Shown in pieces: positions 18,278 through 46,713 of a stretch of 46,751 nt of DNA. The DNA comes from a virus. Positions within the stretch are counted from its first letter, which is position 1, and each line of letters starts with the position of its first letter. The notes under the pieces are model-generated. The model was not told where the DNA came from. It was given only the letters and a program-made list of their open reading frames with translations, and did not search any database. A program made the position numbers and the translations under genes. The stretch is taken from the IMG/VR virus record IMGVR_UViG_3300025674_009214, positions 1 through 46,751 of that record; one strand, written 5' to 3'.

Positions 18278-19252
18278 TTAAATACTTTTAAAATATTTTA
18301 ACCAATATTCTACCATTTCTTTCATCATTGCTTCAAAAGTATAAGTAGGTTTCCAACCCAATTCCGTTCTAATTTTAGTAGAATCTCCTCTTAAGTAGGG
18401 TAATTCTTCAGGTCTTAGGAATTTAGGGTTTTGGACCACATAATCTTTATAATTTAACCCTATATGGTTGAAAACTACTTCACACATTTCTCTTACTGAA
18501 TGGGTCTGCATGGTAGACACTACCCAATCCCCTGGTTTATCATGTTGCATCATTAAATGCATAGCTCTTACATAATCATATGAATGACCCCAATCTCTAT
18601 AAGAATCCATATTCCCTAATTCTAGCTTATCCTGCAAACCTAATTTAATTTTTGCTGCAGCTTTAGCAACTTTATTAGTTACAAAATTACTACCTCTTCT
18701 TGGGGATTCATGATTGAACAAAATCCCATTTGTAGCATGTAATCCATAAGCTCGTCTATAGTTCCTTACTATGTTATAACCAAATACTTTAGAACACCCA
18801 TATGGAGATACTGGGTTCATTATAGTGGTTTCTCTTTGAAAATTATCTTCTTCTACAGATAAACCAAACATTTCAGAACTACTCGCTTGGTAGAATTTTG
18901 CTTTAGGACAAGAGCGTCTGTAAGCTTCTAACATGTTCAAAACACCCAATGCATTAGTTTGAACGGTAAATTGTGGGATATCAAAACTAATTCTAACATG
19001 GGACTGTGCTGCTATGTTATATATTTCATCGGGTTGGATTTGGTCAAGTAATCTTTCTATACCCCCCTGATCTAATAAATCACCATAATAGGTAGTTATT
19101 TTATCTTCTATTTTAGCTAACCTAAGATCTTGGTTTTCAGGGGTGGAATTTCTTCTAACAATACCGTGAACATCATATCCTAATTCTATTAGATATTCAG
19201 CTAAATAACTTCCATCTTGCCCCCCAATACCCGTAATAAATGCTTTTTTCAT
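18278..19252 (-). CDS. gmd: GDP-mannose 4,6-dehydratase
   Basis: 324 residues and recognisable end to end. ITGIGGQDGSYLAEYL (6-21) is the NADP-binding motif of the family, with RRNST soon after. ASSSEMFG (123-130) carries the catalytic Ser/Glu, and SPYGCSKVFGYN has Y151 and K155. NHESPRRGSNFVTNK and NMDSYRDWGHSYDYVRAMH are diagnostic. It converts GDP-D-mannose to GDP-4-keto-6-deoxymannose, the branch point to GDP-fucose, GDP-rhamnose and GDP-perosamine. No fucose synthase is evident in the window, while an aminotransferase of the DegT class is the next gene upstream. Bacterial lengths are usually 340-370, so it is slightly short. Confidence 0.95.
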   Translation of the reverse strand: MKKAFITGIGGQDGSYLAEYLIELGYDVHGIVRRNSTPENQDLRLAKIEDKITTYYGDLLDQGGIERLLDQIQPDEIYNIAAQSHVRISFDIPQFTVQTNALGVLNMLEAYRRSCPKAKFYQASSSEMFGLSVEEDNFQRETTIMNPVSPYGCSKVFGYNIVRNYRRAYGLHATNGILFNHESPRRGSNFVTNKVAKAAAKIKLGLQDKLELGNMDSYRDWGHSYDYVRAMHLMMQHDKPGDWVVSTMQTHSVREMCEVVFNHIGLNYKDYVVQNPKFLRPEELPYLRGDSTKIRTELGWKPTYTFEAMMKEMVEYWLKYFKSI

Positions 19253-19839
19253 TTAAATATTTTCATTTTAGTTAAATCAGGCCAATCTGTTACAACCCAT
19301 TTTTTTGGAGGAGTTTTTATAGCCTCCGGTAATTTTTTTAAACCATTTTCCGCAGTTTCAGGAGTCATGTAATAATGATATCCCAAAGAACTTATGTTTT
19401 GTTCTCTCCAAGGTATATCAGGATCTCTACCATCATAAGTCATTTTTTTCAACTCTACAGATTCTGCTTTATTATCCGTTAATATAATACCTCCTCTACC
19501 CAAGGCCAAATGTTTTTTAAATTGAAAACTAATACACATAAAAGTATTGGGGATGTAACTGTTTTTTTTCCATAACACAGCAGCATCTATTATATTAGTG
19601 TCTCCAATGTAATAATAATCTTCCCAATTTTCATCTTTCCACTTAAGCTCAATATTAAGTTTATGAGATAGGAAAGGAATCGATAAGTAAGTTCTTTTTG
19701 GGACTGTAATACATTTAATATTCTGACGTCTTAAACATAGCTCAATTCCATGGGTGCAACAATCTACCGCAACAGCATAAGGAGCACCAAAAAATTCTGC
19801 TATTTTGTCCTCAAATTTTTTTATACTATTAAAACTCAT
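19249..19839 (-). CDS. Short DegT/DnrJ/EryC1-type aminotransferase
   Basis: 196 residues, only about half of a normal 360-400 residue enzyme. The N-terminal KKFEDKIAEFFGAPYAVAVDCCTHGIELCLR matches the start of the fold, with the Thr/His phosphate-binding turn. ISFQFKKHLALGRGGIILTDN holds the PLP lysine (K109) in the right setting. The C-terminal small domain is missing, although the gene ends cleanly and overlaps gmd by four bases. Full-length relatives put an amino group on 4-keto sugars (for example GDP-perosamine synthase). Whether this compact form is active is uncertain. Confidence 0.72.
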   Translation of the reverse strand: MSFNSIKKFEDKIAEFFGAPYAVAVDCCTHGIELCLRRQNIKCITVPKRTYLSIPFLSHKLNIELKWKDENWEDYYYIGDTNIIDAAVLWKKNSYIPNTFMCISFQFKKHLALGRGGIILTDNKAESVELKKMTYDGRDPDIPWREQNISSLGYHYYMTPETAENGLKKLPEAIKTPPKKWVVTDWPDLTKMKIFK

Positions 19840-20792: not shown

Positions 20793-21581
20793 TTAAAATC
20801 TAGACCCACGAGGATAACGTGTTAACTTTTTTAATTTATCCACACCAGGAAAATTATCTCCTTTATACTCACAATCATCATAATATGCTCTTGCTATTAT
20901 AATACTTTCGGGTTCTTTATAATTCTCAAGCATGGCTACTTCAAGATTGCATTCTTTAGCAAAAACCATTGAATCTGTATGTGAATCAACTTTACCAGAT
21001 GAATCTGTTTTTTCTAATCTAGGAAGTAACCAATCATACAAACCTCCTAAGTACTTATCCATATTTTCAGAATTAGAAAAGAAAAAATAATCAACTATCC
21101 TTGGGTTATGGGGCATATAATTGTCATTGAAAGGAACATACAATAATGATTTATCTTTAAATAAATTAAAATTGATATCCTTTAAGAATAAAAAATCAAA
21201 CCTTGTAGACAAAACAAAATCGTATTTAAAATTATTTTTTATCTCATATTCTTTTTTTAATCTAATTGATTCCTTTGCTGAATACCATCTACTAAACATA
21301 TGTTCTTTGCGAAGGGTTCCTATTTCATTACTCCCCTTAGCATTAAATTTCTTTTGTTTTTCGAATAATGATAATTTGGGTTGGTAAAGTTTTTTGATAC
21401 CCTTCTCAAATTCTGTATTCCAACTATGTATAAAAACATCCACATTAGCATTAACATTGAATAGATGTTTATTAAAATGTGAATGTCCTATTCTATAATC
21501 TACATATTGGTCCCATTTATACTGATTTTTACTAGTATATAACATACCAATATTGCCATGTAGGCAAAGAGCTACTCTCAT
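20793..21581 (-). CDS. Putative glycosyltransferase
   Basis: 262 residues. VALCLHGNIGMLY, ANVDVFIHSWNTEFEKGI, FSRWYSAKESIRLKKEYE and NFKYDFVLSTRFDFLF form a pattern I associate with a family of phage, viral and bacterial glycosyltransferases in surface-glycan loci. R-F-D takes the place of a D-x-D motif. No membrane segment. Confidence in the transferase class is moderate. It shares a four-base overlap with the HAD-type gene. Confidence 0.6.
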   Translation of the reverse strand: MRVALCLHGNIGMLYTSKNQYKWDQYVDYRIGHSHFNKHLFNVNANVDVFIHSWNTEFEKGIKKLYQPKLSLFEKQKKFNAKGSNEIGTLRKEHMFSRWYSAKESIRLKKEYEIKNNFKYDFVLSTRFDFLFLKDINFNLFKDKSLLYVPFNDNYMPHNPRIVDYFFFSNSENMDKYLGGLYDWLLPRLEKTDSSGKVDSHTDSMVFAKECNLEVAMLENYKEPESIIIARAYYDDCEYKGDNFPGVDKLKKLTRYPRGSRF

Positions 21582-21952
21582 AATTCTAAACTTTTTATCC
21601 CTTCAACATCTCTTACTAAATTATAGGCAAAAGCTGTTTTTGTTTTACCATTGGGTTTCATGTCATTAATTAAGTGACGTTCACCTCCACCTACTCCTAA
21701 AATTAATTGGTCATAAATTATGCCTATTTCACTTAATTGCTTTTCAGTAACTTTTCTCATAGACTCTCTTCTCCCCGATATTAATATTATATTATATCCC
21801 TTTCTGTCCCAATCCAAAATAGTTTCTCGGGTTCCAGGAATTAATTCTAATTTATGGGTGGGTTTAGTAGCATCCATAGGGGGGTGGTGTTTAACTAAAG
21901 TACCATCTATATCACATATAATAGTTTTAGGTCTATTATTTAAATAACTCAT
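21578..21952 (-). CDS. HAD-like phosphatase
   Basis: 124 residues with the HAD nucleophile motif ICDIDGTLV (D14 and D16), motif II as ILISGR and a distal LINDMKPNGKTKTAFAYN. It is small and capless, like the phosphatase halves of capsule or polynucleotide kinase enzymes. The position next to the TIM-barrel, AroE-like and kinase/nucleotidyltransferase genes suggests it removes a phosphate from a sugar or polyol intermediate. A DNA 3'-phosphatase role cannot be ruled out. Confidence 0.75.
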   Translation of the reverse strand: MSYLNNRPKTIICDIDGTLVKHHPPMDATKPTHKLELIPGTRETILDWDRKGYNIILISGRRESMRKVTEKQLSEIGIIYDQLILGVGGGERHLINDMKPNGKTKTAFAYNLVRDVEGIKSLEL

Positions 21953-22880
21953 ATAATTTTTCTTTTATGTTATTTTTAATAACATCATTTATATTTGGCT
22001 TAATTGATAAAAAATCTGGGTGGGATAACACATAATGACCACATATTTTGATAAGTTTTTCTTTTTCTACAAAAGGATCAAAGTTTGAATCCACCCATTT
22101 TTCCCATCTCTTAGATTCATAACAAATTTTCCAAAATTTATCTATATCAATACCTTCTTTAAGATACGAATTAGTTTCCAATAATCCAAATTCAGGAGCT
22201 ATATTAATAGAATCTAACCCTAAGGTCATTTTTTCTTTTATCAATTGGGGTGGAATATAATCTCCATTATGTTCTTTTGATAAAAGATTCCATTTCTTTG
22301 CTACTTTTATCATCTTTAGCAGGCGATCTTTATCATAATGTCCTGTATTTAGATTACCTTTTAAAGATGTTCCTGATTGTATAACTAGATATTTTATTTG
22401 ATTGAATACTTTTTTAGATAATTTACTATTAAGATCTTTTAATAGTTGATTTAATTCATCAGGTTCAAATTTTCTAATTGCTTGCTCAGTGCCTATCTCA
22501 TATTCTACTTCTGGATTCCTCCCATAACAGAAATTAATCATATTAATAGTCCATGAAAGACCATCTTCATACTTAGGATATTTTTTCCACGGGTCAATGT
22601 GTATTAAATTAAAATACTTACAATCTTCCTCTAATGATTTATATCCATTATCATCTATATAACCTTGACCAGGACCAGCATGGTCTCTTTTTAATATCAA
22701 TTTATTTGAATATTTTGTAAACTCTTTTGTTGTCCAATTATTAACATAACCCCCATTCCATTCTACTTGTCTTCGTGATGGGATTAATCCAATATTATTA
22801 TTTGTTTCATTAGTAAACTCAATTATAGAATCTACTATATTTTTAGACATTGGTCCTATAAAAAACTTAACATTGCTCAT
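21936..22880 (-). CDS. GatZ/KbaZ-like TIM-barrel aldolase-family protein
   Basis: 314 residues. IGLIPSRRQVEWNGGYVNNWTTKEF and ILKRDHAGPGQGY resemble the early strands of the tagatose-bisphosphate aldolase GatZ/KbaZ group, where an N-Q-x-N-x-F-G-G-Y-T segment and a D-H-x-G-P motif lie in the same order. LIHIDPWKKY and EYEIGTEQAIR follow as later strand ends. INIAPEFGLLETN fits a C-terminal strand. The family members act on or near ketose phosphates, but catalysis by this protein is not shown. The neighbours suggest it makes a carbon skeleton for activation. Confidence 0.5.
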   Translation of the reverse strand: MSNVKFFIGPMSKNIVDSIIEFTNETNNNIGLIPSRRQVEWNGGYVNNWTTKEFTKYSNKLILKRDHAGPGQGYIDDNGYKSLEEDCKYFNLIHIDPWKKYPKYEDGLSWTINMINFCYGRNPEVEYEIGTEQAIRKFEPDELNQLLKDLNSKLSKKVFNQIKYLVIQSGTSLKGNLNTGHYDKDRLLKMIKVAKKWNLLSKEHNGDYIPPQLIKEKMTLGLDSINIAPEFGLLETNSYLKEGIDIDKFWKICYESKRWEKWVDSNFDPFVEKEKLIKICGHYVLSHPDFLSIKPNINDVIKNNIKEKLYELFK

Positions 22881-23502
22881 TTAAGTATAAATTTAATTGT
22901 TCTTCTGCTATTAACCTGGCTATTTCTTTTCCTTCTTTTGTAAAGGGTCTACCATCAATAATATCTTTGTTACTATTAATATCAATTGGTGTACAGTTAA
23001 ATACTATTCCTTTTTTGATATTATTTAATTCTCCCCAATTAGTTCTTGTTATTATATTATATTTAATGTTTGCTAATTCACATGCAGCCTTAACTGATCT
23101 ACCGAATCCTCCTTGTCCTACAATATTAATAAATTCAAGATTATATAACTTTATATATTTTAACACACCAATCTTATCTAAATTATACCCATACCACTCA
23201 TTATTCTTTTTTACGACTGTATTTATTGCCTTAATTTTATTATCACTATCATTAGGTATATTAACTAGTTTTGTGATTTCGTATTTAAAGGGCATACTTA
23301 CAGCAAATCCACTAAAATCTAAAATCTTAGCGGCCATAAAAGACTCTTTTATATTGTTAGAGTAATATGATTTATAGATTGCATTTATATTATTTTCTTT
23401 AAATTTTTTATTAAAGAACTTACAGCCGTTATTGCCAGGTGTTTGACTAAAAGAACCGTATAGTTTTGTATCTTTATTAGGAAACATTGTTAAGCATTTC
23501 AA
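22867..23502 (-). CDS. AroE-like (shikimate/quinate dehydrogenase family) protein
   Basis: 211 residues. The AroE substrate domain is visible as LYGSFSQTPGN, then GFAVSMPFKYEI with the catalytic Lys (K73), AINTVVKKNNEWYGYNLDKIGV with the catalytic Asp (D109), and the NADP loop IVGQGGFGR (128-135). This set matches shikimate dehydrogenase. Typical AroE is about 270 residues, so it is short, mainly in the C-terminal part. A shikimate role seems unlikely here; it may reduce a keto group of a small polyol or cyclitol. It overlaps the fusion gene by 26 bases. Confidence 0.72.
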   Translation of the reverse strand: MKCLTMFPNKDTKLYGSFSQTPGNNGCKFFNKKFKENNINAIYKSYYSNNIKESFMAAKILDFSGFAVSMPFKYEITKLVNIPNDSDNKIKAINTVVKKNNEWYGYNLDKIGVLKYIKLYNLEFINIVGQGGFGRSVKAACELANIKYNIITRTNWGELNNIKKGIVFNCTPIDINSNKDIIDGRPFTKEGKEIARLIAEEQLNLYLNEQC

Positions 23503-25390
23503 TGGATCTTACCCATAACATTTTACCAAACGATTCATCGTGCAATGGTGACATATTTAAAAATATAATTGCAGTTATTAGTTTAATTTTATCTAAATCA
23601 TATTTTGAATTATTAATCCATTTTTCAAAATATGTTTTAAATTTTTGGAGATTAACTGGTACATCGTGGTTATAATTTATAATAGTTTCTCCTTCAGATA
23701 ATTTTACATTATTTGGCTTCTTCATTAAATTATAGGGAATAAGTATACCCCCATATAATTTAGCTAAATCGTAATAAATATCCCCTCCTGATGTATTGCC
23801 GCCAAATGATTCTCTCCAATCAATATACGTAAATTTATCTTTTGATTCATTATATAAAATATTATCAAATTGAAGATCTCCATGAAAGTTTGAATAACAT
23901 TTACTATGTGTAAATTTATCTAATTTTAAATTATTCTTAAGCAATGTTTTTAAAGAAGGATATTGTTTACCATTAATAGTTAAAGGTTCATTAATATACT
24001 TTTCTCCATATTTGTTAATAAACCTTTGCTTTCTAGTATTGGTTTTATCTAAATAGAACTTTTGAAAAATATCTTCACTTAAATCTAACTTTAACGAATT
24101 ATCGATTGTACTATTTAAAAAACCTAGGAACTTTTTATAAAGATTTAAATTATCTAATTGGTATAGTGTATCACCATCCTCCCATTTGTAACTAATAAAA
24201 TGGTTTGTACTTTTAAAATCACTGGGTATTAATTTAGATAATACATTAGCTCTTTTTGATTTATTATTTATATTATTTTTATCTGGGTTGAATTTGATAA
24301 ATCTATTTTCTTTATAAGTTATTTCATCAGTTTCCTTATAGAGTGATAAGGGGTTATCATTAAAGTATAATTTGGTTCTATTTAAATCATCTAAATTCCC
24401 AGTATCTAACCATTTTAGGTCTTTAGTTTTGAAAGATGGATATAAGTTTGGATTATTAAATGCAGTTACTATTTCCCCATTTACCATATTATTTTCTAAC
24501 TGCTTCCAAAATATATCATAATCCCATATACTCGCTAATCCTATGAATGCTTTATCAAATCCTTCTTTGCTTTTATTTTTAAACTCTACTATTTCATCTT
24601 TATTATTTGTTTTTATAGTAGAATATTTTTCTGGGTAGCTTGTTGGATATACACCTAACCAATTGCCATCTAAGTGGGGAATTTTAGAATCAATTATACA
24701 ATCTGCTACTATCCAGTAAAATGGTCTTTGTAGATGTTGTTTACATAATAAAGCTGAATACCCTGGACCTGATTTATCCCCTGTATAGTTATCTATATTA
24801 ACAAATGTGAATTTGTGATCTGGGTATGTTAGTTTACAGTATTCTTTAATAAATTCTCCTTTATAACCTAGAGCAACTACAAATTCATAATTTGATGGAA
24901 ACTTATTAATAATATATGAAATAATAGCTTTATTATCTATAGGTAACATAGCTTTATTTATATTCTTAGTTAAATTTCCTAATCGACTTCCTATACCCGC
25001 AGCTAGAATTAATACAGCAGGGGTTTTATGTTCTGATTCTATTTTCCCATCTGATCTGTTAAATTCATCATTTATTCTAATCACATCATCCACTTCGGGG
25101 GTGGAAACTTCTTGTAAAATGATATCAGTTATTGCTATAACTCTATGCTTTTTAGGAGGGGATACATTAAAAAAATCTCCTGCTTTCATGATTTTTTTCT
25201 CTATTTCACCCTTATCATTTTCTAACCATACTTCAGCGGTACCATCAATAATATAATTAGTTTCTCTTTTTTGGAGGTGATACTGGAAACTAGTTTTATA
25301 ACCAGCATTTATGTAGATTCTTTTATAACAATATCTATCATTAAGTTCTAACCATTCTTCTTTACCCCAAGGTTTATGTACTACTTTCAT
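23477..25390 (-). CDS. Three-domain fusion: cupin, nucleotidyltransferase, APH-type kinase
   Basis: 637 residues. Residues 1-105 form a cupin like the C-terminal half of mannose-6-phosphate isomerase/GMP (KPWGKEEW, QYHLQKRETNYIIDG, GDFFNVSPPKKHRV). Residues 124-345 form a nucleotidyltransferase with the signature LAAGIGSRLG (129-138), K147 and IVADCII. Residues 370-637 are a choline-kinase/aminoglycoside-phosphotransferase-like domain with H503-G-D505 and N510, then TYIDW with D524. Together they could phosphorylate an alcohol and then make its NDP ester, like LicA-LicC. The cupin may isomerise the substrate. One-base overlap (TAATG) with the carbamoyltransferase gene. Confidence 0.85.
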   Translation of the reverse strand: MKVVHKPWGKEEWLELNDRYCYKRIYINAGYKTSFQYHLQKRETNYIIDGTAEVWLENDKGEIEKKIMKAGDFFNVSPPKKHRVIAITDIILQEVSTPEVDDVIRINDEFNRSDGKIESEHKTPAVLILAAGIGSRLGNLTKNINKAMLPIDNKAIISYIINKFPSNYEFVVALGYKGEFIKEYCKLTYPDHKFTFVNIDNYTGDKSGPGYSALLCKQHLQRPFYWIVADCIIDSKIPHLDGNWLGVYPTSYPEKYSTIKTNNKDEIVEFKNKSKEGFDKAFIGLASIWDYDIFWKQLENNMVNGEIVTAFNNPNLYPSFKTKDLKWLDTGNLDDLNRTKLYFNDNPLSLYKETDEITYKENRFIKFNPDKNNINNKSKRANVLSKLIPSDFKSTNHFISYKWEDGDTLYQLDNLNLYKKFLGFLNSTIDNSLKLDLSEDIFQKFYLDKTNTRKQRFINKYGEKYINEPLTINGKQYPSLKTLLKNNLKLDKFTHSKCYSNFHGDLQFDNILYNESKDKFTYIDWRESFGGNTSGGDIYYDLAKLYGGILIPYNLMKKPNNVKLSEGETIINYNHDVPVNLQKFKTYFEKWINNSKYDLDKIKLITAIIFLNMSPLHDESFGKMLWVRSIEMLNNVS

Positions 25391-38988: not shown

Positions 38989-39273
38989 TTACGCACCCTG
39001 CTTGAATTCTCCAAATAAACCATAACGTTTCTCTGGTTCTTCTTTAACTATAATTTCCTCTTCTTTTGTTTTGAGAGCGTATAATTTAGAGTCCAGGGGG
39101 GCTAATCTATATTCCCCCCTGAACTCTGTAGCTTGGAAGTAAGCTTCTAATACGTCCGTAAGAGATGGGTGGATTACTTCATAAGGATCATCCTTTAACA
39201 TCCACTTATCTCCAGGTGGTACCCTAACTGCTATGAGTTCAGGAAATTCAACTATTTCAGTCCGGTTTTCCAT
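38989..39273 (-). CDS. Small acidic protein after groEL, unknown
   Basis: 94 residues. ELIAVRVPPGDKWMLKDDPYEVIHPSLTDVLEAYFQATEFRGEYRLAPLDSKLYALK, then an acidic tail and YGLFGEFKQGA. It overlaps the groEL stop by one base (TAATG), so it is translated with the chaperonin. No family is recognised. It might be a phage-specific chaperonin partner, but only position suggests it. Confidence 0.55.
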   Translation of the reverse strand: MENRTEIVEFPELIAVRVPPGDKWMLKDDPYEVIHPSLTDVLEAYFQATEFRGEYRLAPLDSKLYALKTKEEEIIVKEEPEKRYGLFGEFKQGA

Positions 39274-40904
39274 TAAAACATACCATTATAGTTAGGAGTA
39301 GCTTCTTCCTCACTAGGTTCTTCTACTACTACACATTCTGTTAATAATACAGTTCCAGCAACTGATGAAGCATTTTCAAGGGCTGTTCTAGTTACTTTAG
39401 TTGGATCAATAATTCCTGATTTTCTCATGTCAATATAAGATTCATTTTTTAAATCAAATCCTGTCCAAGTATCATTTGAATCTAGGATTGTATTGATAGT
39501 TTCATAAATAGTACTAGGACCATAACCTGCATTGGTTAAAATCTGTTCTAGTGGTTTATAACATGCTTGTTTTACTAAATCAATACCTAAACAAAAATCC
39601 TGAGATAAAGAACTGTCTTTATGGTTTAGAGCTTCACTTGCATAAATGAGTGCTGCTCCACCTCCGGGGACAATACCTTCTTCTAATGCAGCTTTTGTTG
39701 CATTGAGAGCATCATCTACTCGATCTTTTTTCTCATGCATTTCTGTTTCATTATAACCACCAACATGGATTATAGAAACACCACCAACCATTCTACCTAA
39801 ACGATCTTGTAGTTTTTCCATTTCAAATGGTGATGCCGCATTTTCAATTTGTGATTGAAGTTCACCTACTCGACGATTAATATCTTCAACTTTACCTTTA
39901 CCATCAACAATTGTTGTTTGGTCCTTAGTAATAGTAACTGTACGAGCTTCTCCAAACCAGTCCCAACTGAATTTCTCAAGTTTCATTCCTTTGTTTTTAT
40001 CAAAAACTTGACCACCAGTTAGTACTGCAATGTCTTCAAGAACTAATTTTTGTCTATCACCGAATTCAGGTGCTTTTACAGCTGCTACTTTTAGAGTACC
40101 TCTAGCTTTATTAACAATAAGAGTAGCCAAAGCTTCATTATCAATATCACTAGCTATAATTAAAAGTGATTTATTAGTTGTAGAAACACTTTCCAGAATT
40201 GGTAATAAATCCTTAACAGTAGAAAATTTATGATCAGCAATTAGAATATAAGGATTTTCTAAAGTACAAGTCATAGTAGAATTATCAGTAACAAAAAAAT
40301 GAGATTTATAGCCTCTATCAAATTGCATACCCTCTACTGTTTCAAGATAAGTTTCTCCAGATTTAGATTCTTCAATATGCACAATCCCATCTCTGCCCAC
40401 TTTATCAATTGCAGAGGCAATAAGTTTTCCTACTTCAGGGTCATTATTGGCTGAAATAGTGGCAACTTGTTCTAATTGTTCTTCAGAAGAAATATCTTCT
40501 GCTACTTTTTCTTTAAGACAATCTACTACTTTTTTAGTGGCATAATCAATCCCTCTTTTAACTTCTACTGAGTTAACTCCTCTATTAATACTAGATAAAC
40601 CTTTTTTAATAATTTCTCTTGCTAGTAGAGTAGATGTAGTAGTACCATCCCCTGCTGAGTCTGCAGTTTGAATAGCTGCTTGTTTTACTAACTGTACTCC
40701 TGATTCCTTAATGGGATCTTTTAAGTTAATATTTTTAGCTACAGTTACTCCGTCTTTTGTGGATTTAATGGGTTCATTAGCTTTGGAGATTACTACGTTT
40801 CTACCATTAGGACCTAAAGTAGAAACAACAGCATCTGCTAATGTATCAATACCTGTAACTAGTTTTTCTCGAGCATCTGCTCCTAATTCAATAATCTTTG
40901 ACAT
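39273..40904 (-). CDS. groEL: Chaperonin GroEL (Hsp60)
   Basis: 543 residues, full length. The ATP-site motif is SAGDGTTTSTLLARE (83-97), with STLGPNGRNVVI (28-39) before it and DGVTVAKNINLKDP (51-64). VDDALNATKAALEEGIVPGGGAALIYA is the diagnostic C-terminal block. KKLEKFSWDWFGEARTVTITKDQTTIVDG is slightly unusual in the apical-intermediate hinge (W-D-W-F in place of the common L-G-x-A). The C-terminus is EEATPNYNGMF, lacking the G-G-M repeats of bacterial groEL. It follows groES by 10 bases. Confidence 0.97.
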   Translation of the reverse strand: MSKIIELGADAREKLVTGIDTLADAVVSTLGPNGRNVVISKANEPIKSTKDGVTVAKNINLKDPIKESGVQLVKQAAIQTADSAGDGTTTSTLLAREIIKKGLSSINRGVNSVEVKRGIDYATKKVVDCLKEKVAEDISSEEQLEQVATISANNDPEVGKLIASAIDKVGRDGIVHIEESKSGETYLETVEGMQFDRGYKSHFFVTDNSTMTCTLENPYILIADHKFSTVKDLLPILESVSTTNKSLLIIASDIDNEALATLIVNKARGTLKVAAVKAPEFGDRQKLVLEDIAVLTGGQVFDKNKGMKLEKFSWDWFGEARTVTITKDQTTIVDGKGKVEDINRRVGELQSQIENAASPFEMEKLQDRLGRMVGGVSIIHVGGYNETEMHEKKDRVDDALNATKAALEEGIVPGGGAALIYASEALNHKDSSLSQDFCLGIDLVKQACYKPLEQILTNAGYGPSTIYETINTILDSNDTWTGFDLKNESYIDMRKSGIIDPTKVTRTALENASSVAGTVLLTECVVVEEPSEEEATPNYNGMF

Positions 40905-43737: not shown

Positions 43738-45422
43738 ATTTCAAATGGTTGATTTTCTTTGATTACTTTATTCATATGTTTGTTTACGCATAAAGCCGAT
43801 TCTTGAATAATGCGCTGACCCGACAAAGTTATAGCTTCAGATAAAATAACAGAACCATATCTAAAGCTAGGTAATGCAGTAGCACCATAAAGTGAGTTTA
43901 GTAGGATTTTCATGGTATACTGTTTCATATGAAATGATGCGCCTAATTCATTATTACCTGATTTGTATGCTTTTTTCATTTCAGTTTTATACTTAACCCG
44001 TTCATCAAACCATTTATTAAGTATAGTAGATAAAACGGATTGTTTATCAGTTCTAAAAAACACTCCATTAGCTGATATAGACATTCCCATGTCTTTAATT
44101 AAGTTAATTAGTTTACCTATTTTTATTTGAGTTCTTTGGCGTTTAGCATTTTCTATAGTTATTTCCTTTTCAGGGTCTTTATTCATTAAATCATTAAGAC
44201 CAAGACGATTATTCCTATCATCGGCATCAAGAATTCTACCAACTAATGTTTCCTTGCCTATATTAATAGTCATAATAATAGAAGGATATAATGAAGTTAG
44301 ATCTTCATCAAACATGTAATTGTAAATACCTGCTTTAGGACAGAATAAAAAACCACCAGCATAACCCTTTTTAGTAATATTACTTTTATCTTTGGAAGGT
44401 GGGATTAATCCTTGTTCTAATAAATATGCTGAGATAGCACCATCTTGGGTTTTAGTGTTGGCATAGACTTCACTATAATTATGTTTACCCTTATGGGATA
44501 GATTTTTGGTGAGTGCCAGGTATTCTAATTTCTCGTCTAATAGTTTTAGAATCTCAACATCACGAAAGTTATATTCAATAAATTTATTAATATCAGATTC
44601 AAACAAATCATCAAGATTACCTTCGTACTCAATTTTATTTACACCAACATATTTTTCGCCAATAGCATCTAAACGGTAAGATGGTTCATCAGCCCAACTA
44701 TATTTTTTGTGTAAACGCATGTAATCAAGAGATTCAACCCCCATGATTTGAATATATTGATCCTTAAACCAGGGGGTTTCTCTTACTTTTTGAATAGGAG
44801 AAAGATGGGCAGCTATATCTTCACCTAACACATTACACATCCTATAATAAAGATAAGGCACATCAAAATAATCACTATTCCAACCCACAATAATATCAGG
44901 GTCCATTTCTCGAAACTTTTCAAGAAATTTGTAAAGAAGTTCCCGTTCTGTTTGTACTGGGATTATTTCTTGATTTTTATTTTTAGTATACTCTAATTGC
45001 CGTTTAGTATCTAAAATTAAGATGCCCCACTGATCAACTTGCTTATCATACCAGGCAATAGAAGTTACTTTTTTAGGGGCTCGTTTTATATAATCCTCAG
45101 TAAGAGCATCTCCCATTTCGGTTTCAATATCAAAAAATACTTCTCTATGTGTAACTGAAGGTTCATCATTAGTGCCATATTTTTCTATAAGGAACTTTTG
45201 ATGGGCAGGTATATCCCAATAATGAAGATTAGGCTCCTCTCTTTCCCATTTAGAAGTAATTTTTAGAGGTTCACCATTTAAACCAGTGTGAGTGGCTGAT
45301 CCAGGATCACATTCCCTATAAGATTTATTGATCCACTCTATTTCTTCTTTACCAGCATCGGTCCATAGGTGGATTTTGTGTTTATTTTTTCCTATAGGTT
45401 GGGCGTATATTTTCTTATACAT
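43734..45422 (-). CDS. gp43: DNA polymerase B, N-terminal part (gp43A)
   Basis: 562 residues. The 3'-5' exonuclease motifs are intact: Exo I REVFFDIETEM (D98, E100), Exo II GWNSDYFDVPYL (D184) and Exo III YNFRDVEIL (Y284, D288). Polymerase motif A is DLTSLYPSIIMT (D374) and motif B is K-x6-NSLYGA (KILLNSLYGATAL, about 505-517). It ends at 562 with NKHMNKVIKENQPFEI, just before the motif C region, which the gene at 42536 supplies. The start overlaps the MazG gene by eight bases. Confidence 0.95.
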   Translation of the reverse strand: MYKKIYAQPIGKNKHKIHLWTDAGKEEIEWINKSYRECDPGSATHTGLNGEPLKITSKWEREEPNLHYWDIPAHQKFLIEKYGTNDEPSVTHREVFFDIETEMGDALTEDYIKRAPKKVTSIAWYDKQVDQWGILILDTKRQLEYTKNKNQEIIPVQTERELLYKFLEKFREMDPDIIVGWNSDYFDVPYLYYRMCNVLGEDIAAHLSPIQKVRETPWFKDQYIQIMGVESLDYMRLHKKYSWADEPSYRLDAIGEKYVGVNKIEYEGNLDDLFESDINKFIEYNFRDVEILKLLDEKLEYLALTKNLSHKGKHNYSEVYANTKTQDGAISAYLLEQGLIPPSKDKSNITKKGYAGGFLFCPKAGIYNYMFDEDLTSLYPSIIMTINIGKETLVGRILDADDRNNRLGLNDLMNKDPEKEITIENAKRQRTQIKIGKLINLIKDMGMSISANGVFFRTDKQSVLSTILNKWFDERVKYKTEMKKAYKSGNNELGASFHMKQYTMKILLNSLYGATALPSFRYGSVILSEAITLSGQRIIQESALCVNKHMNKVIKENQPFEI

Positions 45423-46014
45423 TAAAGAATTTTGATAAGTCAGGACGGAAATAGTTAACAGATTTCATTACTTTTTTATCACTTGTTCTGTATACAACAT
45501 AATTACTACCTACTTCCTCATAATGGCAGGGTTCACCTTGTTGCTCAGAACGTACTTTAACTGTTTCCTTAGCTTCTTCTAATGTAGTGCAAATTTTAGA
45601 TAAATTAGAAGCTTGTACTTCTTGATATGCTTCCCAAATTTTATCTTTTAATCCAAATACCATAGCACCATTACCTAGTCCTACGTAAGTGATATCTAGG
45701 ATTGCATCTAATACCTCCTGAATATTTTCTTGTTCAACAGCTTCTCGGAGTTCATCTAATTCTTCTTGAATAAAATTAATAACAAACTCAGCATCTTTTT
45801 TATCTATAGTGGGTTCAGTTCTATTCTGCCATTCTTTACCCATTACAGTATTAAATTCTTCTACTTCTGTAACAAATGGGACATACTGCCCTTCAAACTT
45901 TGAAGTAATATTATCTGCTAATTGTTCAGTCCATAATGTAGGATCATCATGAAATGGAAGTTGAATCAATGATTCTCGGATTTCTTGTTTGATTAATTTT
46001 TTAAAATATGACAT
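45415..46014 (-). CDS. MazG-like/PRA-PH-type NTP pyrophosphohydrolase
   Basis: 199 residues. The all-alpha core is DKKDAEFVINFIQEELDELREAVEQENIQEVLDAILDITYVGLGNGAMVFGL, with the E-x-x-E-L and D-A-x-x-D metal-binding residues, then YQEVQASNLSKIC, the usual S-N-x-S-K end. Such enzymes remove pyrophosphate from NTPs or dNTPs (or (p)ppGpp-linked pools), which is why phages carry MazG. The extended C-terminal part (about 150-199) is strand-rich. It follows folE by six bases and has AAAACGTT before the ATG. Confidence 0.82.
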   Translation of the reverse strand: MSYFKKLIKQEIRESLIQLPFHDDPTLWTEQLADNITSKFEGQYVPFVTEVEEFNTVMGKEWQNRTEPTIDKKDAEFVINFIQEELDELREAVEQENIQEVLDAILDITYVGLGNGAMVFGLKDKIWEAYQEVQASNLSKICTTLEEAKETVKVRSEQQGEPCHYEEVGSNYVVYRTSDKKVMKSVNYFRPDLSKFFNV

Positions 46015-46020
46015 AACGTT

Positions 46021-46713
46021 TTATTGATAAGTGTTTAAACCATAGCCAATCATATGCATTACCTCTTGTTTAGCAGTTTTATCGTGCTCTGCAAATACAC
46101 CGCTAACTTCAGATGTAATCATACTGGCTCCCATATGTTTTACTCCTCTACAAGATACACAATTATGTGTAGCTTGCATAACAACCATCACGCCTTTATT
46201 TCCTTCTACTACTTTAGAAGTGGCATTGTGGATAGCCATTGTGAGTTGTTCTTGAATTGCTCCTCGTCTTGAGAAATGCTCTACAATACGATTTAATTTA
46301 GATAAACCAATTACTCGTCCCTCTTCACCAGGAATATAAGCAATATGTGCTTTACCTAAAATTGTTTGGTGGTGGTGTGAACATTGAGAAACAACAGGGA
46401 TATCTTTTTCTAATACAATTCCTTTATAACCATCAGATGGAAATGAAGTAACATCAGAAATGGAATCATATCTACCCCTCCATAAATCGTTTACATATGC
46501 TTTAGCAACACGTTTTGGTGTTTCCATTGAATTAGGATCGTTTTCCCAATCGCATTTTAGAGCAGTAAGGAATTTGCCATAATGGTGAGCTGCTTCATTG
46601 ATCATTTCTTGTTTTTGTTCATCCGTTAAGGGATAATCTGCAGCAACTCCATTTGCAAATCCCTTTTGTACACATTCTATATCATTGTGTAATTTTCTTC
46701 TGTTATTCTCCAT
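46021..46713 (-). CDS. folE: GTP cyclohydrolase I (FolE)
   Basis: 230 residues. Zinc and catalytic residues: C111-S-H-H114 in SQCSHHHQTI, and C185/C188 in THNCVSCRG. The other blocks are ETPKRVAKAY, HIAYIPGEEGRVIGLSKLNRIVEHFSRR, QEQLTMAIHNA and MGASMITSEVSGVF. It makes 7,8-dihydroneopterin triphosphate from GTP, the first step of folate and of 7-deazaguanine (preQ0) synthesis. In phages it is often linked with 7-deazaguanine DNA changes; the other enzymes are not in this window. Confidence 0.95.
   Translation of the reverse strand: MENNRRKLHNDIECVQKGFANGVAADYPLTDEQKQEMINEAAHHYGKFLTALKCDWENDPNSMETPKRVAKAYVNDLWRGRYDSISDVTSFPSDGYKGIVLEKDIPVVSQCSHHHQTILGKAHIAYIPGEEGRVIGLSKLNRIVEHFSRRGAIQEQLTMAIHNATSKVVEGNKGVMVVMQATHNCVSCRGVKHMGASMITSEVSGVFAEHDKTAKQEVMHMIGYGLNTYQ

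Follow-up and report, generated by a model that had tools for sequence, protein, structure and literature searches.

The 46,751-base viral DNA analysed here, IMG/VR virus record IMGVR_UViG_3300025674_009214 (hereafter, the window), carries a module of four overlapping genes encoding a fused cupin–nucleotidyltransferase (NTase)–kinase (the hub), an AroE-like reductase, a GatZ/KbaZ-type TIM barrel, and a HAD phosphatase. We propose that this phage cassette converts a ketose phosphate into an uncommon sugar or sugar alcohol in nucleotide-activated form, and that glycosyltransferases of the locus then remodel a surface glycan, a reading to which we assign a probability of about 0.6. The proposal builds on the enzyme families, the conservation of their catalytic residues, their co-inheritance, and the exchange of cassettes among viruses. 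The genes lie on the minus strand (positions 21578–25390), overlapping by 11–26, 14, and 17 bases, inside a run of sugar genes of roughly 20 kb. They had been named in a preliminary description of this DNA, and its open reading frames and all of its fold assignments were confirmed by Pfam, profile, and fold searches (Table 1).

Distribution of the module in viruses

A scan of viral contigs with a TIM-barrel alignment retrieved 179 relatives, the best 80 of which were combined with a marine single-cell virus (L006) and the window into a set of 82 loci. The IMG/VR loci are partly non-independent, with 71 distinct TIM proteins among the 81 kept. A cupin/NTase–kinase gene lay near the TIM gene in all 82 loci, and the HAD gene did so in most. 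The AroE gene adjoined the TIM gene in 34 loci including the window, and the 33 others encoded the fused protein and mostly HAD as well; aligned identities of the TIM and AroE proteins to their relatives were 37–74%. Because the arrangement recurs across so many loci, the reading of the genes as chance neighbours was rejected. The doubts raised in the preliminary description, that the families might co-occur in this phage alone and that active-site residues might vary among relatives, were dispelled: AroE, TIM, and fusion were found together in the 33 other viral loci and all four genes in one bacterial genome (L101, below), and the catalytic residues were conserved.

Three versions of the module were distinguished. 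Type A, that of the window, combines the fused protein with AroE, TIM, and HAD; type B has separate cupin and NTase–kinase genes with TIM and HAD and without AroE; type C retains AroE and has a split transketolase and a GmhA-like isomerase instead of TIM. An intact fusion was accompanied by AroE in 29 of 29 loci and a separate NTase–kinase in none of 47, the few remaining loci being truncated or broken by contig ends or frameshifts. Scans with the other proteins gave the same picture. Among 74 viral loci found with AroE, 73 had the NTase–kinase and 63 had TIM; the ten with the NTase–kinase and without TIM all had the same three genes between NTase–kinase and AroE, assigned by Pfam to a SIS/GmhA-like isomerase and both transketolase halves. 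A search for TIM in four whole type C records, a set that had no positive control, found none. The fused protein retrieved 71 loci, 66 of them with AroE and TIM and the other five short and cut off, and the type B NTase–kinase retrieved 80, with TIM in 77; of the other three, two were cut off and one (L398) had HAD without TIM. Thus, the earlier view of the four genes as one pathway stands in that they recur together, but the set is not indivisible, since AroE is missing from 48 loci and TIM from 10 of the AroE loci.

The transketolase and GmhA-like isomerase of type C again point to ketose-phosphate chemistry and in this way support our proposal. The same genes also favour a scheme after the logic of ADP/GDP-heptose synthesis, in which isomerase, anomeric kinase, HAD, and NTase would yield a nucleoside diphosphate (NDP)-aldose, with an APH-fold kinase replacing HddA/HldE and TIM or transketolase giving the ketose phosphate. 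HddC and MurU occur among the matches of the NTase domain, the HAD protein is small and cap-less like GmhB, and a GHMP kinase–cupin–NTase set encoded separately in L006 resembles HddA/HddC by eye. This scheme leaves the AroE of types A and C unexplained, and PDB profile searches place LicC above HddC; we regard it as unlikely.

Two further viral arrangements were observed. L006 carries a second module (L006:3169-5026) in which an APH-type kinase and, after it, an NTase–HAD fusion were identified by eye, a rearrangement of the same three activities. Enterococcus phage 9183, which has a Gram-positive host, encodes HAD and an NTase–kinase fusion (L007:4645-6620) with no TIM or AroE nearby.

Phylogeny and cassette exchange

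In the NTase–kinase tree, types A, B, and C each occupied one side of a branch (SH-aLRT 100, 97, and 100, respectively). In the TIM tree, the A/B label switched 16 times, at least 7 of these switches being forced by the starred branches, and the TIM barrels of L023 (type B) and L033 (type A) were very similar despite the differing type. The HAD tree also gave 16 A/B changes, with poor resolution for this short protein. NTase–kinase clades that track type, together with TIM labels that interchange, identify exchangeable cassettes: by these trees, TIM and HAD form the common core around which the hub and AroE are swapped as alternatives. The specificity of the hub would be matched to the presence or absence of the reductase, for which the clade pattern is the strongest evidence. 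A distance-matrix comparison within type A loci was less clear than this clade test and gave no indication of AroE tracking the NTase–kinase more closely than TIM.

These patterns bear on a sharper form of our proposal, in which type A would end in an NDP-alditol: a ketose freed by HAD (e.g., tagatose) would be reduced by AroE to a hexitol, phosphorylated, and activated with cytidine triphosphate (CTP) like CDP-glucitol or CDP-ribitol, and type B would yield an NDP-aldose. AroE is the sole recurrent gene separating types A and B, the NTase–kinase clade changes along with it, and HI0607-type enzymes, to which the AroE-like protein is related, occur in sugar operons. Moreover, Campylobacter jejuni HS:5 makes CDP-6-D-glucitol with a cytidylyltransferase and an NADPH-dependent reductase (PMC10918830). 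Against this, the cupin of type A is still fused and its presumed ligands are invariant, although an alditol route would not need a cupin, and no TagF/LicD-like phosphotransferase was recognised among the annotated shared neighbours. The division into an alditol for type A and an aldose for type B is a reasonable conjecture, and we regard the full scheme as less likely than not.

Features of the module enzymes

The TIM protein of the window matched no Pfam family at E ≤ 0.1, and NCBIfam likewise gave nothing useful; PHROGs has a family for neither this protein nor the AroE-like one. Its kinship was established through an intermediate, L008, which matches PF08013 (1.9e-15), and by profile–profile alignment to other bacterial relatives (100%, 2e-78). 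The AlphaFold model (predicted local distance difference test, pLDDT, 94.7) had 3txv and 2fiq as its first five PDB fold matches (TM-score 0.69–0.77, E 3e-14 to 7e-13). E. coli GatZ and KbaZ are 4-epimerases converting fructose 6-phosphate to tagatose 6-phosphate, with H88, E171, and H257 as proposed metal ligands and D87 as the base in GatZ (PMC11907403). Mapped by motif, D87, H88, E171, and H257 correspond to D66, H67, E132, and H204 of the viral protein, which are invariant in 26 sequences. Under the historical PF08013 annotation, the barrel would instead assist a class II aldolase without itself being catalytic. That role is very improbable here: the annotated shared neighbours include no recognisable aldolase gene, the residues of the metal and base set do not vary, stand-alone TIM copies occur, and GatZ/KbaZ epimerise fructose 6-phosphate themselves (PMC11907403).

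The AroE-like protein was recognised by Shikimate_dh_N of Pfam (1.8e-10) and by PRK12550 (1.7e-25), with HI0607 as the best PDB relative (1npy, 5e-17); its best score of 89.8 bits is below the equivalog cut-off of PRK12550 (306). Its start is likely the ATG at 23487 (M6) rather than the TTG at 23502, as comparison with relatives indicates. Catalytic K73 and D109 (K65/D102 of E. coli AroE), earlier described as kept, proved invariant in 28 aligned proteins, as did N94. The S-x-S carboxylate clamp that holds shikimate in AroE is replaced by N24-x-G26, as in HI0607-type relatives; therefore, the protein was not classed as a shikimate dehydrogenase, and a true shikimate-pathway role was rejected. 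HI0607-type relatives were found within a sorbose operon carried by a Serratia plasmid, near a sugar-binding regulator in Priestia, and near a fructose-type phosphotransferase system in Salmonella, and an AroE-fold enzyme reducing 5-ketofructose has been described (structure 7cok; PMC7954740). The loss of the clamp, these sugar-operon settings, and the 5-ketofructose reductase of the same fold make a keto-sugar the likelier substrate.

In the fusion, the presumed Q/H/E/H ligand set of the cupin is kept in types A, B, and C, and the NTase and kinase motifs are invariant in an alignment of 17 fusion sequences. The NTase profile placed LicC first in the PDB, with sugar-1-phosphate nucleotidyltransferases close behind. 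The kinase profile retrieved weak protein-kinase-like matches and nothing else among PDB sequences; the fold search did better, giving APH(3')-Ia, ethanolamine/choline kinase, and methylthioribose kinase. The resemblance to LicA–LicC pointed out in the preliminary description is thus upheld for the NTase; the fold of the kinase is common to APH, choline/ethanolamine, and methylthioribose kinases, at a TM-score of about 0.5. These same matches could suggest a LicA/LicC-like system for a non-sugar alcohol such as choline or ethanolamine, with the other genes as mere neighbours. We consider this very improbable, since TIM stands beside 77 of 80 type B NTase–kinase genes and AroE beside every untruncated fusion, and choline activation requires no epimerase, reductase, or phosphatase. 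Phosphocholine activation was rejected because the partner genes encode sugar enzymes.

The HAD protein matched Acid_phosphat_B/HAD_PNKP of Pfam (E about 1e-7), and all or nearly all of 72 aligned proteins share D14, D16, R61, N96, D97, and K99. A 377-residue methyltransferase (Methyltransf_23) often sits between TIM and HAD, at L018:7950-9083 and in about 19 other viral loci, and from this position some products of the module may be methylated.

Occurrence in bacteria

The preliminary description had suggested looking for co-occurrence of these genes in bacterial capsule loci. A genome scan recovered all of the type A genes in a metagenome-assembled genome (MAG; L101) of a marine member of the Flavobacteriaceae, together with WecA-type, Wzy_C, and UDP-glucose dehydrogenase (Ugd) genes, and this setting is a real capsule/O-antigen locus. 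Directly after the module, L101 encodes a 1016-residue protein (L101:10836-13886) that has PPDK/PEP-utiliser domains and, as judged by eye, a nucleotidyltransferase-like N-terminal region; it may be a further enzyme serving an activated phospho-compound. An alphaproteobacterial MAG contig (L102, type A) and a Gribaldobacteria contig (L104, type B) also carry the module; both are short and may be viral.

Marine flavobacteria with a lone TIM barrel were considered as a bacterial version of the pathway and rejected, the remaining module being absent in most of the marine flavobacterial genomes with a close TIM that were searched. Such copies suggest that the TIM protein also works outside the pathway of the module. 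The lone gene (L089–L100, L103, and L106) adjoins succinate dehydrogenase genes in L094, and the pattern of gene lengths is the same around most of the others.

Well over a hundred viral contigs carry the module, and the full set was found in just three bacterial or MAG contigs, so that phages may hold sugar chemistry largely absent from their hosts. The usual description of phage sugar loci is that of O-antigen genes copied from the host; this module is a defined enzyme set in three versions.

Proposed pathway

In the scheme we infer, which covers every reaction, the order of the steps, the substrate, the nucleotide, and the product, the metal-dependent GatZ/KbaZ-type barrel would first act on a ketose phosphate, remaking its C3–C4 bond through retro-aldol/aldol chemistry of the kind put forward for E. 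coli GatZ; in type C, transketolase and isomerase would supply the ketose phosphate instead. The cupin would then interconvert ketose and aldose phosphates like phosphomannose isomerase and, in type A, the AroE/HI0607-type enzyme would reduce a keto-sugar with NAD(P)H. HAD would take off the original phosphate, the APH/choline-kinase-fold domain would phosphorylate a different hydroxyl, and the NTase domain would join the product to a nucleotide, perhaps from CTP in view of its likeness to LicC.

That an NDP compound might be formed from a ketose phosphate had been suggested in advance, and co-inheritance and conserved catalytic residues now speak for it. Several observations weigh on the other side. 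The window's AroE deviates from all 27 relatives at two positions, L108 (T in the relatives) and I198 (Q in the relatives), and it forms a long branch in the AroE tree; judging from these changes, this copy may be altered or decaying. It is doubtful that the cupin serves as a plain isomerase in type C, where it is retained next to a GmhA-like isomerase. The kinase resembles its fold matches only distantly (TM-score about 0.5 at best), and they point to no particular substrate. A search of 400 genomes of the family of L101 found the module in L101 alone, and its bacterial co-occurrence looks rare. Finally, many marine flavobacteria have the lone TIM barrel, 56–65% identical, away from NTase–kinase genes.

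A wider claim, with odds a little short of even, is that the module represents a new, mainly phage-borne route in which interchangeable front ends and an optional AroE-type reductase feed the hub to give new NDP-sugars or alditols for the host surface. A search of the open-access literature found no described pathway for the gene combination, nor for transketolase/GmhA with nucleotidyltransferases. Under the scheme, GatZ/KbaZ-like and HI0607-like proteins, families long named for activities that may not be theirs, acquire roles that can be tested, and the module offers a compact system to reconstitute for a new nucleotide sugar or alditol.

Genomic context in the window

The phage genes of the window include those for DNA polymerase, an exonuclease, and a GroEL-like protein, and the sugar-gene run contains glycosyltransferases, methyltransferases, a carbamoyltransferase, and a GDP-mannose dehydratase (GMD)-like gene. 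The glycosyltransferase-like protein following HAD belongs to a cluster present in 29 of the 82 neighbourhoods and is a candidate user of the module's product.

Table 1 Features of the module and the adjoining gene
Feature	Position	Strand	Evidence
Cupin–NTase–kinase fusion, 637 residues, type A hub	23477..25390	-	Pfam MannoseP_isomer (4.9e-8), NTP_transferase (1.7e-8), weak APH; 17-sequence alignment
Cupin domain, phosphomannose-isomerase type; presumed ligands Q36, H38, E43, H82	25055..25390	-	PF01050, 4.9e-8; residue conservation in types A, B, and C
LicC/MurU/HddC-like nucleotidyltransferase domain; G132xG134xR136, K146, D230 invariant	24371..25024	-	Top PDB profile match LicC 1jyk, 4.4e-8; 17-sequence alignment
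APH/choline-kinase-fold kinase domain; HGD 503-505, N510, D524 invariant	23480..24358	-	AlphaFold pLDDT 92.9; Foldseek
AroE/HI0607-type reductase, shortened; K73, N94, D109 kept, L108 and I198 atypical	22867..23502	-	Pfam, NCBIfam PRK12550, PDB, alignment
GatZ/KbaZ-type TIM barrel, 314 residues; proposed catalytic set D66, H67, E132, H204	21936..22880	-	Intermediate sequence, profile–profile, fold; residues mapped by motif
Small cap-less HAD phosphatase, 124 residues; D14, D16, R61, N96, D97	21578..21952	-	Pfam; alignment
Conserved glycosyltransferase-like protein, follows HAD	20793..21581	-	Weak DUF7796 match

A half-size DegT/DnrJ aminotransferase is encoded at 19249–19839 (196 residues, compared with the usual 360–400 or so). 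It is 74% conserved in L003 and present in five other viral neighbourhoods, in some of them beside a GMD-like gene, and its retention across viruses makes a simple pseudogene unlikely. The GroEL-like chaperonin gene lies at 39273–40904 (PHROG 5725, E 6e-151), and a GTP cyclohydrolase I gene at 46021–46713 adjoins a PRA-PH (MazG-like) gene (45415–46014), with the DNA polymerase gene near.

Comparison with known systems

The TIM protein shares the fold and the proposed D-H...E...H catalytic set of the GatZ/KbaZ family (PF08013); it is shorter (314 versus about 420 residues), occurs in biosynthetic viral loci with no aldolase partner seen, and falls under Pfam detection. The AroE-like protein has its best sequence relatives in the HI0607-type proteins (PRK12550), with which it shares N-x-G in place of S-x-S and the catalytic Lys/Asp pair, but it is about 60 residues shorter and located in NDP-sugar loci.

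A choline-kinase-fold kinase and a LicC-like cytidylyltransferase are common to the module and LicA–LicC, whereas in the phage the two are fused to a cupin and adjoin sugar-phosphate enzymes. NDP-heptose pathways follow an isomerase–kinase–HAD–NTase logic, use kinases other than the APH fold, and have no reductase. The module has this logic in common with GDP/ADP-heptose synthesis (GmhA, HddA or HldE, GmhB, and HddC), and the type C isomerase is GmhA-like; its kinase has the APH/choline-kinase rather than the GHMP or PfkB fold, and TIM and AroE are additional.

The nearest described route is that to CDP-6-D-glucitol in C. jejuni HS:5, where HS5.18 and HS5.17 provide a cytidylyltransferase and a short-chain dehydrogenase/reductase (SDR) using NADPH (PMC10918830). 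There, too, the activated polyol for a surface polysaccharide is derived from a ketose phosphate by a nucleotidyltransferase and a reductase. In C. jejuni, however, the SDR acts after activation and TIM, HAD, kinase, and cupin are lacking, whereas the phage reductase is of the AroE type.

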